Below are positions 32,613 through 58,797 of a stretch of 64,000 bases of DNA, one piece after another. Each line of letters starts with the position of its first letter. The first letter of the stretch is position 1. This stretch comes from Candidatus Saccharimonadota bacterium (GTDB lineage Bacteria; Patescibacteriota; Saccharimonadia; Saccharimonadales; UBA4665): contig JARIHI010000004.1 of NCBI GenBank assembly GCA_029288365.1, positions 1-64,000 of the forward strand. Direction: 5' to 3'. The notes under the pieces were generated by a model. The model saw only the letters and a list, made by a program, of their open reading frames with translations. It ran no database searches and was not told where the DNA came from. Position numbers and translations under genes: made by a program.

Positions 32613-32676
32613 TTCACACTCTTTTCGTCCTTTTGGACTCGTCAGTATGACTACACAGTCATATAAGAGTTGTGAA
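32613..32676 (-). ncRNA. Type III hammerhead ribozyme (minus strand)
   Basis: Read on the minus strand: stem III TTCAC-A-ACTCTT pairs with AAGAGT-GTGAA (one bulged A); cleavage base A at 32664; stem I TATGAC-TGTGTA-GTCATA; core CTGACGA; stem II GTCC-AAAA-GGAC; then GAAA. All conserved core positions are present. Stem sequences differ from the other three hammerheads in the window while the pairing is kept, which supports function. It would cut a minus-strand transcript at its 3' end. Confidence 0.85.
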
Positions 32677-40590: not shown

Positions 40591-40903
40591 TTAAAGAGCC
40601 TCTAGAGGGGGTGGGCACCGCTAGAGGCTCTTTAATCCCTTCAACTCGACCTCAGTGAAGCATCGACGTCTATATATCTTATGACTCGTGCCGGCCCAGG
40701 GGGCCATCTTTTGGACTCACCGTCCCACTACAGGGCAGAGCGAAGTTAAAGGGGTTAGTTTGTTTTAGAGCGTTGCCTGTAATTTTGCAGGCGCTGCATA
40801 AAAAGTGGAGGGTAACAACTCGTCATGACGCGCTCTAAAACAATCTAACAATTTGTTAGAATGGGGTATAAGGTACGTAAACGCTCATATAGAACGCTTA
40901 CAG
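40591..40903 (-). ncRNA. Structured small RNA with own promoter and terminator
   Basis: On the minus strand TTGACA (40933-40938) and TAAAAT (40910-40915) are 17 bp apart. The transcript folds into GTAAGCGTTC/GAGCGTTTAC, TCTAAC/GTTAGA, a large GTTTTAGAGCG/CGCTCTAAAAC domain with an inner GCCTG/CAGGC stem, CCCTTTAACT/AGTTGAAGGG, GGCC stems, and ends with TTAAAGAGCCTCTAG/CTAGAGGCTCTTTAA plus a T run. It lacks conserved RNase P, tmRNA and SRP cores. Both neighbours are on the other strand, so it is not a leader. Confidence 0.75.
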
Positions 40904-41826: not shown

Positions 41827-41880
41827 TTGCAAATTAGTAATTTTTGTGATATAATTTATATACTGTCCTTAGGCAGTATA
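41827..41880 (+). promoter_or_regulatory. Promoter and 5' hairpin of cassette A
   Basis: TTGCAA (41827-41832), 17 bp, TATAAT (41850-41855). The predicted start near 41862 falls in a hairpin TATACTG-8nt-CAGTATA (41859-41880). Confidence 0.8.
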
Positions 41881-41907
41881 TACCGTCCATCTATCAAGGG
41901 TAGTGTC

Positions 41908-42225
41908 ATGACCACACATGTCTCCGCCTCACCCAAAAGAGTGCGCTGCAAGAGTGCAGGAAAGAAGGTCACCTTCCTCTTCGACCAGCAGATAGCCGGA
42001 ATCGAGAGCGAGAAGACCTACAACCGACAGACGTGGCACCGTGCCACCGAACCCGCCCTCAGATCCGTGCTCAGCGAACTGTTCGACCTCAAGCACGTGA
42101 GAGCCGTCATAGTGAGAAGCAGACGCATCACCATCCTCCGAGATGGCGCGAAGCTCGAACGAATCAGAGGCTGCCTCAGCCGCGCCGGACGAGAACTGGG
42201 ATGGGAGCTGGAGTTCACCGAGTAG
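41908..42225 (+). CDS. Cassette A small orphan protein, 105 aa
   Basis: Begins MTTHVSASPKRVRCK; no recognised family. Basic, alpha/beta in appearance, with a central LRSVLSELFDLKHVRAVIVRSRR stretch and a Trp-containing C-terminus (GWELEFTE). ATG 41908 is chosen over an earlier start because the promoter gives a leader from about 41862 and AAGGG stands 7 bases before it. Third codon positions are almost free of T, unlike dprA and topA. A GC-rich hairpin and hammerhead follow. Confidence 0.75.
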   Translation: MTTHVSASPKRVRCKSAGKKVTFLFDQQIAGIESEKTYNRQTWHRATEPALRSVLSELFDLKHVRAVIVRSRRITILRDGAKLERIRGCLSRAGRELGWELEFTE

Positions 42226-42294: not shown

Positions 42295-42329
42295 TGGCAA
42301 CCCGCACCACTCCTTGATAGATAGACAAA

Positions 42330-42385
42330 CTCACTCTATAACTCTCTAGTTATACTGACGAGTCCTGGAAGAGGACGAAAGTGAG
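42330..42385 (+). ncRNA. Type III hammerhead ribozyme, cassette A 3' UTR
   Basis: Stem III CTCACT (42330-42335)/AGTGAG (42380-42385); cleavage base C42336; stem I TATAAC-TCTCTA-GTTATA (42337-42354); CTGACGA core (42355-42361); stem II GTCC/GGAC (42362-42376); GAAA (42377-42380). All core bases are canonical. Cutting after 42336 would release the mRNA of the cassette A gene with a 2',3'-cyclic phosphate end. Confidence 0.9.
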
Positions 42386-42416
42386 ACACTATAATTGCTT
42401 ATGCTACACTAAATTT

Positions 42417-44992: not shown

Positions 44993-45021
44993 TTGCTTTT
45001 TATTTATTTTTATGATGTAAT
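44993..45021 (+). promoter_or_regulatory. Promoter of cassette B
   Basis: TTGCTT (44993-44998), 17 bp, TGTAAT (45016-45021). The start of transcription is likely near 45028. The leader contains a TAGGTG/CACCTA hairpin at 45050-45078. The -35 is just past the topA stop. Confidence 0.7.
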
Positions 45022-45100
45022 GTGTATGCAGGCAATAAAGCCTAGCACCTAGGTGTTGAAAACCTAAGTAAGCACCTACAACGAGCAAGGAAAGGGCTTC

Positions 45101-45427
45101 ATGGCTTCCATAACAGTGACCGTCCAAAGCGAGTGGTCAGAACGTGAGACAGATCTGGAGACAGGCAATGCAGAAGTCTGCGAGAGCGTAAGCATCCGCC
45201 GACTAATAAGCAACGGCGCATCTCTCACTCGAGGAATCCTGCAGAGATTCGCAGAAACAGCCGCTAGGCGCATACTGCTGTGCCACCACCTTACCGTTGG
45301 AGAACCCGTCGTCAAGAATATAGGCGACGACTGGAGTGTCACCTACATCCTGCCAGGATACACCCACGAACAAGCGCAACAGTGTATGCGCCCCATCTCC
45401 AACGTAATGAACAGCAGCCTGCCATAA
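45101..45427 (+). CDS. Cassette B small orphan protein, 108 aa
   Basis: Starts MASITVTVQSEWSE; unrecognised. Beta-strand-rich ends flank a helical middle (LTRGILQRFAETAARRILL) with three Cys. AAGGAAAGGG precedes the ATG. Codons strongly prefer C, G or A at the third position over T, unlike topA just upstream. It is followed by a strong hairpin (45444-45474) and the 3' pairing element; no hammerhead is visible. Confidence 0.75.
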   Translation: MASITVTVQSEWSERETDLETGNAEVCESVSIRRLISNGASLTRGILQRFAETAARRILLCHHLTVGEPVVKNIGDDWSVTYILPGYTHEQAQQCMRPISNVMNSSLP

Positions 45428-45443
45428 GCAAGAGCAATGGAGA

Positions 45444-45474
45444 GGCCCCAGGGGTACCGAAGTCCTCTGGGGCC
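45444..45474 (+). terminator. GC-rich hairpin after cassette B ORF
   Basis: GGCCCCAGGGG/CCTCTGGGGCC around TACCGAAGT; no clear U tract, and the pairing element lies downstream of it. It may stabilise the mRNA rather than end it. Confidence 0.6.
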
Positions 45475-45598
45475 ATACAGTATTAGAGATACATCGCAAT
45501 GTCGTTGCATCATACATCTTGTACCAACCTTTTCTTGCTCAAAATCCTAATTATCTAAAGCAACTTAAGCCCCAATAAGCATTACAAGCATTAGGTTG

Positions 45599-45626
45599 TT
45601 GACTTTAACCTTATGAGGTATATAAT
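45599..45626 (+). promoter_or_regulatory. Promoter of cassette E
   Basis: TTGACT (45599-45604), 16 bp, TATAAT (45621-45626). Transcription would begin near 45633 and end at the terminator at 46314-46336. Confidence 0.75.
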
Positions 45627-45678
45627 GGAGCGCAAGATTTGTGAGCGTTTTATTTTATTTCTGTTCCAAATCGTTCGT

Positions 45679-46275
45679 TGACAAGTGAACATACACGTAA
45701 CGAGTAGTGAGCAGCATTTTTTATTAAGTGTTTTTACTTCTCGTTGCGTGTCAATCGGAGATACGACCAAGCAGAAAGTTTGCTTGTGGGCTCCTTAAGC
45801 CGTAAGAAAGACAAAGGAGCCCTGCGAGAGTCAAGTACAGGAGGATGCGCTCTATGCGCGACGTCCACCGCAAGACCCGCGGCCTCGGCGGCGGCACGAC
45901 GGACACCTTCGGCCACAAGACGACCGGCATCCCGCGCGGCGGCGGCACGGCCGAGACGCTCCACGACGACGGCCTCGACATCGGCCTCCTCAAGCCCGCC
46001 TGGGCCGCCTGCTGAGCAAGCAGCGCCTCGGTAGGTAGAAGTACTCGCAGCACCCTGCAGCGCCCAGCGTCCACCAAACGCCACGGATTACAGAATAACC
46101 TAGCGGTGAATTTCGTGGGCTGAAAAGCTTTCGAGAACTCACACGTGAGATCCGTCGCGGTAGACGTTGGTAAACTCCTTCCAGGGGATTGGAAGCGAAA
46201 TGTGGCGAGTGGGCTTGATGAGAAGAGTTTTCGGGTTCTTCCCGTTCTCCTTTTTCTCTGATTGTTCACTTGTCA
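45679..46275 (+). ncRNA. Closed structured RNA domain (cassette E), with internal ORF
   Basis: TGACAAGTGAACA (45679-45691) and TGTTCACTTGTCA (46263-46275) are perfect 13-bp complements closing about 600 nt. Inside: ACACGTAACGAG/CTCGTTGCGTGT, CCAAGCA/TGCTTG, GGGCTCCTT/AAGGAGCCC, GCGC/GCGC, ACGGAT/ATCCGT and more. This could be a self-closing mRNA or a large structured RNA. It could instead be a mobile unit: the flanks show CGT on both sides, a possible 3-bp target duplication. No group II domain V, tmRNA or RNase P core was recognised. Confidence 0.6.
45854..46015 (+). CDS. Cassette E GC-rich small peptide, 53 aa
   Basis: Begins MRDVHRKTRG, contains repeated GGGT blocks and ends PAWAAC with a C-terminal Cys. 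AGGAGG at 45839-45844 is 9 bases before ATG 45854 (an alternative ATG at 45845 directly follows it). Every codon after the start ends in G or C, which is extreme for this genome. Gly, Thr, Asp and basic residues dominate, and no fold is evident. The reading frame may be incidental to the RNA structure, but the Shine-Dalgarno and codon pattern argue for coding. Confidence 0.55.
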   Translation: MRDVHRKTRGLGGGTTDTFGHKTTGIPRGGGTAETLHDDGLDIGLLKPAWAAC

Positions 46276-46313
46276 CGTTTCGCCTCAAAGTACTGAATCA
46301 GAAAACGTTTGAA

Positions 46314-48256: not shown

Positions 48257-48952
48257 CCACAATATGCTTACATGGCAATATTTATACGTAGCTGAACAAA
48301 ATACGAACTAATGTAGAGGTCTGCGCATAAACAGTGTAGTCAGTAGTTAAGCAACAGCAAGTCCATCATAACGTTAATGCTTGTGTTGCTGGTGCAGGGT
48401 AAGTACAAAAGCATTTTGTTCCATGAATTCATAAACCGGGAAGACAAACACGCGGAAAAGAGTATATGTAAAACGATATATACCTAACGTCGCACAATGT
48501 ATATTTTGCGACGTTATGTATATATCTACTGAATGATAACTTATACCTCCAAACAGGGGACCTTTACACGACTTTTAGGCATTTAATGCTTTTACGCTCA
48601 CCATCGATACTTGAGTATAGCATGTCCTGTACATACCTCGGCTTAGGCTATGCCTCTAAGCTTATGTTATTAGCCCTAGTGTTACCTAAGTCATTCCTGA
48701 CACTATTATTTGACTTTTCCACAGCATTGTCGTGAAATGTTTGCTTTTTTGACTTTTCCATATTTTTATATTAATTTTATGCTAATCCCCTAGTTTGTTA
48801 CCCTTTTCTATATTTTTTGACTTTTTCCCTACTTTGTATATTTGTATAGTTTTTTATCTATATACACAATACGACGTTTAGTGAACAGAATACGAACATG
48901 CAGGGTAGCATTGCAGGGGGATTATCTACTTTCAACCTTTAGCTAACACTAT
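48257..48952. other. AT-rich intergenic region with long hairpin and three TTTGACTTTTCC repeats
   Basis: No supported ORF in about 700 bp. A perfect hairpin AACGTCGCA/TGCGACGTT with outer ATATATAC/GTATATAT spans 48476-48525. The motif TTTGACTTTT(T)CC recurs at 48709, 48748 and 48816; each contains a TTGACT hexamer with AT-rich sequence 17 bp away, so they may be multiple plus-strand promoters, or binding sites. The region separates convergent gene sets and lies at the 3' end of the dcw cluster. Confidence 0.5.
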
Positions 48953-57499: not shown

Positions 57500-57528
57500 T
57501 TGACATATGGCTAATTATTTGATGTAAT
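57500..57528 (+). promoter_or_regulatory. Promoter of cassette C
   Basis: TTGACA (57500-57505), 17 bp, TGTAAT (57523-57528), the same -10 as cassette B. The transcript would begin near 57535. Confidence 0.8.
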
Positions 57529-57534
57529 AAAGTT

Positions 57535-57877
57535 GTAGGAAGTGTTCAGCATTCCCTCGACAAAGGTGGTCTTTGTGCTGATATTGGCTGGGCTTGTACT
57601 CATGATGTTCTTGCCCATCGTTGGAACTGGTGTAATGCCAGAAATGACGGCAGCACCGCACCCCAACAGACAGCTCTACCCCTGGCAGCAAGCAGCATAT
57701 GGCCTGTTGGCTGCAGGAGGCTTGACGGGGTTCATCCTCTTCACCTCAGTGGTCAGCAACGTCAGTTCGGTGCTCACCGTCGTCTACCTCCTGTTCGGTG
57801 GCACGTGCTGGGTGGTCGGTCTCTCCATGCTCTGGCGTGTATCAAGGCCAAGACGACGATGGTAGCATCCTTTCTAC
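57535..57877 (+). promoter_or_regulatory. Helix between cassette C 5' end and post-stop sequence
   Basis: GTAGGAAG (57535-57542), at the predicted mRNA 5' end and including the first base of the start codon, pairs over 8 bases (one G-U) with CTTTCTAC (57870-57877), five bases after the stop. It would sequester the initiation site. Confidence 0.5.
57542..57865 (+). CDS. Cassette C small membrane protein, 107 aa
   Basis: Three hydrophobic helices (about 9-28, 50-68 and 74-95) and a strongly basic C-terminus (SRPRRRW). No family recognised. GTG start with only about 7 bases of leader, so near-leaderless. Codons are rich in C, G and A endings. It is followed by an identical-type hammerhead. The Arg tail on small membrane proteins recurs in cassette D. 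Confidence 0.65.
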   Translation: MFSIPSTKVVFVLILAGLVLMMFLPIVGTGVMPEMTAAPHPNRQLYPWQQAAYGLLAAGGLTGFILFTSVVSNVSSVLTVVYLLFGGTCWVVGLSMLWRVSRPRRRW

Positions 57878-58017
57878 ATAACACAGACAGATCCCTGTAC
57901 GGAGGCTGGAGACAATTACTCACCAATCCGTAGTCTGTGCTAGAAACCATATAATATAGATGCCTCACACGGTATCGTTTCATCACATATTATATATTTC
58001 TAGTCAGGGGTCAACAG

Positions 58018-58066
58018 CAGTTTAGCTTAGCTACTGATGAGACTTGGGAAGTTCAAGTCGAAACTG
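58018..58066 (+). ncRNA. Type III hammerhead ribozyme, cassette C
   Basis: Stem III CAGT (58018-58021)/ACTG (58063-58066), extended by AGGGGT (58006-58011)/ACCCCT (58070-58075) beyond an internal loop; cleavage base T58022; stem I TAGC-TTA-GCTA (58023-58033); core CTGATGA (58034-58040); stem II GACTTG/CAAGTC (58041-58059); GAAA (58060-58063). The core is canonical. Confidence 0.92.
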
Positions 58067-58109
58067 TTTACCCCTCTTCATACAAGCAAGTTGACCTCAG
58101 GGAGGTATA

Positions 58110-58138
58110 TTGACTTTTCTTTATTTTTTTGGTATAAT
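58110..58138 (+). promoter_or_regulatory. Promoter of cassette D
   Basis: TTGACT (58110-58115), 17 bp, TATAAT (58133-58138), start near 58145. Confidence 0.8.
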
Positions 58139-58150
58139 AAACACTGCGGA

Positions 58151-58729
58151 ACCCCTATAGTTTGGCAACCGAGCAACGTGAGGTAGAGACACCCATGTTT
58201 AAAGCTTTTATTCGATTCGTCGTTCTCGTCCTGCTTGCAATCTACGTGCTGATCATGGTCAGCAGCCCTGCAGGCATCAAGATCGTGATGGCCGACGGAC
58301 TCGTCGCGCTCTGCATGATCTGGGCCCTGCTTCGACGGCGCCCCCTGTCTGACGGCCAGAGACTGTTCCACTGGAGCTGCTTCTGGCTGGCTATCGGCAT
58401 CGTGGCCGCTGTTGGCATTGGCGTACAGCAGCAGATCGGCTTGGTGCCGTCGTTGCACTTCATCTGGTTCGCGATTCTCGGCTACAAGGTGCTGAGATGG
58501 CGATTGAACTGGTACGGCCCGCGGTTCAACGGACGCATCAGACGACGCATCGGATTCGGAAGACGACGAAGAGGGAGAACAAGAAGAAGACCGTAAGCGT
58601 TTCGCCGCAGACAAGCCCCTCACGGCAAAGGTTTGAGCATGGATGCTCGCCTTCTACCGTGGTCTGCACCAAACATATATAGTCTCGTACCCAGAGGGGT
58701 GCAAGAATTATATACGTTAGGTCAGGGGT
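58151..58729 (+). promoter_or_regulatory. Three nested 5'-3' helices of cassette D
   Basis: ACCCCT (58151-58156) with AGGGGT (58724-58729 or 58695-58700); GTTTGG (58160-58165) with CCAAAC (58669-58674); CGTGAGG (58177-58183), covering the GAGG Shine-Dalgarno, with CCTCACG (58618-58624). The order is nested, so all can form together as a panhandle. Confidence 0.6.
58195..58596 (+). CDS. Cassette D small membrane protein with Arg-rich tail, 133 aa
   Basis: Four hydrophobic segments (VVLVLLAIYVLIMV near 10-23, MADGLVALCMIWALL near 33-47, FWLAIGIVAAVGIGV near 65-79, LHFIWFAILGYKVL near 88-101) and a tail of about 30 residues ending GRRRRGRTRRRP. Unrecognised. ATG 58195 follows GAGG at 58180-58183. 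C/G-ending codons dominate. The hammerhead after it is identical to that of cassette C. Confidence 0.7.
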   Translation: MFKAFIRFVVLVLLAIYVLIMVSSPAGIKIVMADGLVALCMIWALLRRRPLSDGQRLFHWSCFWLAIGIVAAVGIGVQQQIGLVPSLHFIWFAILGYKVLRWRLNWYGPRFNGRIRRRIGFGRRRRGRTRRRP

Positions 58730-58781
58730 GCAGTTTAGCTTAGCTACTGATGAGACTTGGGAAGTTCAAGTCGAAACTGCA
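58729..58781 (+). ncRNA. Type III hammerhead ribozyme, cassette D
   Basis: Stem III TGCAGT (58729-58734)/ACTGCA (58776-58781); cleavage base T58735; stem I TAGC-TTA-GCTA; core CTGATGA (58747-58753); stem II GACTTG/CAAGTC (58754-58772); GAAA (58773-58776). Bases 58730-58779 equal 58017-58066, a 50-base direct repeat 713 bp away, while the flanks differ but keep stem III pairing. Confidence 0.93.
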
Positions 58782-58797
58782 ATGTATTATTATCATT

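Follow-up and report, generated by a model that had tools for sequence, protein, structure and literature searches.

Single-gene cassettes with complementary mRNA ends and predicted hammerhead ribozymes in a Saccharibacteria genome

Results

A 3' UTR partner for the ribosome-binding site of cassette B

The window, a 64,000-nucleotide stretch from a Candidatus Saccharimonadota bacterium (GCA_029288365.1, contig JARIHI010000004.1, positions 1 to 64,000), carries small single-gene units that we call cassettes A to E. Cassette B has the following parts.

45011..45021 (+): predicted promoter, -10-like region TATGATGTAAT, like TGATGTAAT before cassette C at 57520
45051..45077 (+): leader hairpin AGGTGTT-GAAAACCTAAGTA-AGCACCT, with a stem that covaries in the sister cassette B2
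45083..45095 (+): 5' arm GAGCAAGGAAAGG, with the Shine-Dalgarno sequence (SD) inside, ending 5 nt before the ATG (45101)
45101..45427 (+): ORF, 108 aa, orphan
45444..45474 (+): strong 3' UTR hairpin GGCCCCAGGGG...CCTCTGGGGCC
45528..45540 (+): 3' arm CCTTTTCTTGCTC, about 101 nt past the stop

The preliminary description proposed that the SD region of B pairs over 13 bp with its own 3' UTR. The full length of the helix and the position of its 3' strand, about 101 nt after the stop, hold, but the pairing is not purely Watson-Crick. It consists of 12 Watson-Crick pairs and one G.U (45090:45533), with no pure Watson-Crick run longer than 7 bp. The shuffle control and the comparison with ordinary genes that had been called for both favor the pairing. 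Dinucleotide shuffling of the 3' UTR, repeated 1000 times, never produced a 13-bp run of Watson-Crick and G.U pairs, and the B helix has no equal among the native genes compared (0/129 with leader-3' UTR pairing of at least 13 bp counting G.U, or at least 11 bp of Watson-Crick pairs). The energy of the duplex by itself is unremarkable against shuffles (p 0.19). When the whole RNA is folded, pair probability exceeds 0.5 at all 13 pairs.

A DNA search found a second B-like unit in the same genome, B2 (L186, 1440-2020). Its closing helix is a perfect 13 bp and joins the SD to a segment some 100 nt past the stop codon. Three of the 13 helix pairs are altered on both sides between B and B2 (G-C to A-U, A-U to G-C and G-C to A-U), supplying the compensatory changes whose absence the preliminary description had said would count against the helix. 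The leader hairpin stem also covaries between the two. This leader hairpin pattern occurs twice in the genome and in 0 of 118 relatives, and the DNA homologues of B are limited to the B2 leader and otherwise trivial short matches. The ORF products of B and B2 have no sequence similarity detectable by BLASTP. Single-sequence AlphaFold predicts a beta-beta-alpha-beta-beta-alpha fold for the B protein with low confidence (pLDDT 65), with no PDB match at E<=0.001. The B2 prediction has pLDDT 59, and a topology common to both predicted proteins is only suggestive.

Hammerhead ribozymes downstream of the cassette genes

The sequences flanking cassettes A, C and D contain CUGANGA...GAAA cores of type III hammerhead ribozymes (HHRs), which the first reading of the window left unremarked. 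A further hammerhead lies on the minus strand.

41827..41855 (+): cassette A predicted promoter, TTGCAA-N17-TATAAT
41857..41882 (+): cassette A 5'-terminal hairpin TATATACTG..CAGTATATA
41885..41906 (+): cassette A 5' arm, including the SD; partner 42304-42326
41889-41899 with 42312-42322: cassette A helix core, 11 bp
41908..42225 (+): cassette A ORF, 105 aa, orphan, GC3 0.73
42304..42326 (+): cassette A 3' arm
42329..42386 (+): cassette A type III hammerhead, with a complete set of core bases
57575..57865 (+): cassette C ORF, membrane protein, start uncertain (57542 or 57575)
58015..58069 (+): cassette C type III hammerhead, RF00008 33.1 bits, E 7.2e-5
58110..58138 (+): cassette D predicted promoter, TTGACT-N17-TATAAT
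58144..58156 (+): cassette D 5'-end arm, predicted partner 58724-58733, not above chance
58195..58596 (+): cassette D ORF, 133 aa, membrane protein whose tail is Arg-rich
58728..58782 (+): cassette D type III hammerhead, core identical to that of C, RF00008 34.4 bits, E 4.5e-6
32617..32671 (-): type III hammerhead, 3'-terminal in a transcript (about 33320 to 32640) that lacks a long ORF

All four have the features of RF00008, namely the CUGANGA and GAAA core, three stems open at III and NUH at the cut, and all four score below the Rfam gathering score. The A hammerhead reaches 37.8 bits (gathering 48.5; E 1.6e-5), with a predicted cut after CTCACTC, about 42336/42337; the minus-strand copy has E 0.017. 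We built a covariance model, R1, from seven HHRs of this genome, leaving out C and D, whose long stem II misaligned. In the R1 alignment 94% of cells are paired, 11 of 17 pairs have compensatory changes on both sides, and the core is intact. R1 gives 65.9 bits for A and 76.4 bits for the minus-strand copy, both of which it was trained on. Rfam and R1 together place about 11 HHRs in the genome, a genome-wide count that rests on these searches.

Hammerheads were found in 39 of 119 genomes of related Saccharibacteria, at up to 27 per genome, and in 43 of 380 genomes of a phylum-wide sample. A search of 84,980 species genomes for the exact core pattern gave 57 stretches; almost all of them carry titles of Saccharibacteria, other candidate phyla or MAGs, and one is in Mycobacterium. 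Within the phylum of Mycobacterium, 1 of 396 genomes has an HHR, and this is the same Mycobacterium asiaticum case. Some other Patescibacteria and some viral contigs have a local hairpin immediately 5' of the HHR instead. Self-cleavage in the cassettes is predicted from the ribozyme cores. Within the literature collection searched, no paper links hammerhead ribozymes to Saccharibacteria or Patescibacteria.

Several other matches were set aside. Rfam miRNA-like hits (MIR1507, mir-7973) are long hairpins matched by chance, and a viral pattern, GCTTGTCA...CTGANGAG, is noise, with an R1 match in 0 of 80 tested loci among the matches listed. Small genes on one viral contig (L118, 1773-3317) are interspersed with three hammerheads, and a similar ACAAACTACAAAGGA start-site sequence comes after each hammerhead. 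On the minus strand of the window, 33320-32617, which closes with the hammerhead listed above, and about 32600-32100 are neighbors that lack a long ORF; they have a common opening motif (AAAAATGAAAGTGACTTTCTGGAGAAGTTTTCC / AAAAATGGAAGTAGCTTTCCAGGGAGAAGTTTTGCC) and look like related long non-coding RNAs. An intergenic pairing at 40760-40850, GTTTTAGAGCG...CGCTCTAAAAC, encloses about 80 nt and is possibly another structured RNA. A long, nearly perfect intergenic hairpin with arms of about 19 bp lies at 48475-48526.

No hammerhead follows the 3' arm of B, either with R1 run with filters off (best 7.1 bits in the stretch) or with Rfam, and our search found none in B2. Pistol- and twister-like ribozymes, considered by eye after the B 3' arm, were ruled out as lacking a P1 or pseudoknot partner, and all Rfam matches there at E<=10 were implausible.

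Pairing of transcript ends across the class

To describe the class, 108 HHRs were extracted with their flanks, and ORFs were picked by a score that included SD and GC3. Nearly all 108 follow an ORF with an SD (median 146 aa), and the median 3' UTR of well-called units is 117 nt. In 90 cassettes we compared the leader with the 62 nt before the ribozyme. The mean longest perfect run is 8.67 bp, versus 6.69 when leaders and 3' UTRs are mismatched between cassettes. Runs of at least 10 bp number 31 against 2.7 expected from this control, and runs of at least 12 bp number 17 against 0.75. In over half of these 90 cassettes no run exceeds 8 bp, and closure may not be universal. Long 3' arms mostly end 0-6 nt before stem III.

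Many leaders have a common plan: promoter, hairpin (CUUUG-UUGAG...CUC-CAAAG and variants), arm (TGACAAGCAGACA and variants), long hairpin, small hairpin and SD. A permutation anchored on these motifs, which involves no selection on complementarity, gave 10.33 of 13 pairs for a cassette's own arms versus 9.55 for permuted arms (p=1e-4), with compensatory changes at arm positions 7, 8, 10 and 12. The earlier proposal that the RNA closes on itself is thus strongly supported by the mismatched-pair control, the anchored permutation and the covariation of B with B2. In several cassettes a second long-range helix may lie within the first, as noted by eye for leader GGAAAACACACG and 3' UTR CGTGTGTTTTC of the cassette at L045 6502.

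The individual pairings proposed for A, C and D fared differently. The perfect 11-bp pairing of the A SD with its 3' UTR was confirmed (p<0.001 versus shuffles). Taken singly, the SD pairing of C is at chance level (p about 0.9), as is the nested pairing of D (p about 0.36), whose predicted end helix lies outside the SD.

The 3' UTR contains a second partner for the 3' arm in 12 of 41 cassettes (p<0.01), most of which belong to the TGACAAG class. This wobble copy looks like the 5' arm altered by A-to-G and C-to-T substitutions, with G.U pairs preserving its match to the 3' arm (for example, TGACAAGCAGACA and TGGCAAGTGGACA). That one strand has both a weak partner nearby and a strong one far away suggests the layout of a strand-exchange switch. 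An example is cassette E (45599-46285), directly 3' of B.

45599..45626 (+): cassette E predicted promoter, TTGACT...TATAAT
45679..45691 (+): cassette E 5' arm TGACAAGTGAACA, of the family of the commonest arm TGACAAGCAGACA (TGACAAG class)
45693..45751 (+): cassette E leader hairpin ACACGTAACGAG...CTCGTTGCGTGT
45854..46015 (+): cassette E ORF, small (about 53 aa) and high in GC, read from the sequence, orphan by eye
46203..46215 (+): cassette E wobble copy TGGCGAGTGGGCT, able to pair with the 3' arm at 12 of 13 positions
46263..46275 (+): cassette E 3' arm TGTTCACTTGTCA

The E arms (45679-45691 and 46263-46275) pair perfectly over 13 bp, and RNA folding prefers the local wobble hairpin. No hammerhead follows the E 3' arm in the same R1 search with filters off or in Rfam, and a decayed hammerhead there is without support from R1.

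The SD is predicted to be buried in a subset of cassettes

The preliminary description suggested that hiding the SD is the rule. We computed partition-function folds of 30 HHR cassettes with and without the 3' arm. Twenty-five of the 30 have their 5' arm ahead of the SD, in most cases close to the leader's 5' end, and here the mean SD unpaired probability is 0.30 with the 3' arm and 0.33 without it. In the other five (A and four others) the arm covers the SD, which is unpaired with a probability of about 0.00, compared to a mean of 0.45 without the 3' arm. Adding the 3' arm takes this value to about 0 from 0.59 in B, 0.38 in B2 and 0.34 in A. Over these three and the four others, the SD is predicted to be unpaired with a probability of 0.3-0.7 when the 3' arm is left out. 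A 3' UTR complementary to its own SD, as in the icaR mRNA of Staphylococcus aureus, is therefore found in B, B2, A and four others and not in the 25, and the claim of a general rule is not supported. Since the 5' arm is upstream of the SD in 25 of 30, these models indicate that closing the ends is the general pattern and that SD hiding follows from short leaders. The leaders of B, B2 and A are very short, and so their closing helix contains the SD.

It had also been proposed that translation could require strand opening or cleavage. Cleavage of another kind is predicted, in that a self-cleaving hammerhead directly follows the 3' arm in most cassettes, but the cut would lie 3' of the helix and leave it unopened. 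Strand opening is plausible, because many 3' UTRs contain a wobble copy of the 5' arm.

Cassette genes have mycobacterium-like codon usage

Most cassette ORFs are orphans. Searching 94 proteins gave 13 Pfam families, mostly with one member each; a few of the matching proteins probably belong to neighboring genes. Most cassette proteins also lack a PHROG match. In the genome of the window, GC3 is 0.76 for cassettes, 0.40 for native genes and 0.37 for the ribosomal-protein region. Cassette codon usage correlates with that of M. asiaticum ORFs (r 0.86) and not with native genes (0.12) or the ribosomal-protein operon (0.07). The low GC3 of the ribosomal-protein region rules out high-expression codon bias as the cause. 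Cassette GC3 exceeds native GC3 in 27 of 28 genomes, an effect that may be somewhat inflated because GC3 was part of the ORF-picking score; a longest-ORF list made without GC3 has the same trend. In one AT-rich genome the cassettes are AT-rich, yet their GC3 is still above native. TAG is the commonest stop of cassette ORFs (56/108, and 7/9 in the genome of the window), while native genes prefer TAA.

A complete saccharibacterial-type cassette, with arm, leader hairpin, ORF, 3' arm and HHR, lies in a chromosome contig of M. asiaticum (L167, 4480-5330, minus strand). The 104-kb contig carries P450, acyl-CoA dehydrogenase, lipid-transfer and phosphoglucomutase genes and a DNA-phosphorothioation (dnd) cluster. 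No cassette was found in 247 other genomes of the genus or in 395 others of the phylum. The architecture thus occurs in an unrelated genome and a foreign context, as a mobile element would. The transfer was probably of DNA, because the copy bears an AT-rich promoter-like region.

Discussion

The arms, the ribozyme cores, their co-occurrence and their covariation are read directly from the sequence. Transcription start sites, transcript ends, promoters and ribozyme cutting are predictions, and the evidence is computational. We consider it probable that this genome has about a dozen single-gene units with end-sealed, mostly ribozyme-cut mRNAs, that cassette B belongs to them and that the seal blocks translation in B, B2 and A. 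Each unit would comprise its own promoter, a 5' hairpin, a 5' arm, an SD and ORF, a 3' UTR of about 100 nt and a complementary 3' arm. In most units a type III hammerhead 0-6 nt beyond the 3' arm would cleave the RNA as it is being made, so that the new 3' end carries a 2',3'-cyclic phosphate a few nt beyond the helix. The mature RNA would be an end-closed panhandle, resistant to exonucleases, with a terminator dispensable. In cassettes with a wobble copy, the 3' arm may switch between its local and long-range partners. The closing helix of B, B2 and A contains the SD, and the closed form should therefore not initiate translation until opened by a helicase, a competing strand, the ribosome itself or RNase III. 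In B and B2 the seal would form without a recognizable ribozyme.

Plain SD sequestration would make the cassettes autoregulated mRNAs of the icaR type, with an initiation block or an RNase III site and the ribozymes incidental. The helix does cover the SD in B, B2, A and four HHR cassettes, with accessibility near zero, and icaR is a proven precedent (PMC3868564). As a general account this is unlikely, given that the arm does not reach the SD in 25 of 30 cassettes, that mean SD accessibility is independent of the arm (0.30 versus 0.33) and that the 3' arm takes its position from the HHR, 0-6 nt before stem III. The cassettes might instead be ordinary phage or mobile-element genes, recently acquired, in which phage-style HHRs separate mRNAs and end pairing has no special role. 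Prophage HHRs flank genes (Perreault et al. 2011, PMC3088659), HHRs occur on viral contigs, some between small genes (L118), the composition is foreign, and one cassette has moved into Mycobacterium. We hold this to be improbable: the units have their own promoters, are scattered among housekeeping genes and share a recurrent leader architecture, and most of their proteins are missing from PHROG. Their 5'-3' complementarity with compensatory changes would also be needless for processing into separate transcripts.

Hammerhead ends and end-to-end pairing are the geometry required for ligation into circular mRNAs, retrozyme- or viroid-like, and D sits between two HHRs of identical core sequence. 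The promoter of D itself intervenes between the upstream HHR of C and the D gene, however, and nearly all cassettes have a single HHR on the 3' side, so the 5' end should be a triphosphate. RtcB was found in 0 of 8 cassette-rich genomes tested (control genomes positive in 9/14) and reverse transcriptase in only 2 of 8, and circles are very unlikely. Saccharibacteria live on Actinobacteria. The sealed mRNAs could conceivably be made for delivery: nuclease-proof and ribozyme-trimmed, some with a hidden SD, with codons that fit a high-GC actinobacterial host, and opened and translated there. The codon correlation with the mycobacterium (r=0.86), GC3 above native in 27 of 28 genomes and the cassette in a Mycobacterium chromosome agree with delivery, but recent gene capture from high-GC donors would account for the codons as well, and we give delivery little credence.

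If end-sealed, ribozyme-cut mRNAs are the correct reading, ribozymes would be routine makers of mRNA 3' ends across a group of ultra-small bacteria, coupled to an end-tying helix. The role of bacterial hammerheads has been called an open question (PMC6155905). With more than 100 HHRs at a constant position to the gene, many with a structural partner, that role becomes testable. The host-like codons of the orphan genes and the cassette in an actinobacterial chromosome bear on interactions between these epibionts and other bacteria.

In prophages, type III hammerheads flank single genes (Perreault et al. 2011, PMC3088659). The cassettes have in common with these the ribozyme fold and core, the gene-length mRNAs expected from self-cleavage and the varying identities of the genes. 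They differ in being chromosomal single-gene units of Patescibacteria, with their own promoters and many per genome, and in adding a 5' hairpin and a closing helix directly before the ribozyme. Their ORFs are orphans with actinobacteria-like codons, and B, B2 and E have no detectable ribozyme. B, B2 and A resemble the icaR mRNA, whose SD is bound by its own 3' UTR (Ruiz de los Mozos et al. 2013, PMC3868564). The cassette helix is longer, is repeated in unrelated genes with unrelated sequences and is mostly off the SD. In most cassettes it is coupled to a predicted ribozyme-made 3' end. In the icaR type the pairing stops initiation and brings in RNase III. Retrozymes and viroid-like circular RNAs also have type III hammerheads in short, dispersed DNA units (PMC6155905). 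Unlike retrozymes, the cassettes have one ribozyme per unit and code for protein, with no long terminal repeats seen, RtcB absent and reverse transcriptase mostly absent. Each part, the hammerhead and the UTR pairing, is known; the combination as a class appears new.
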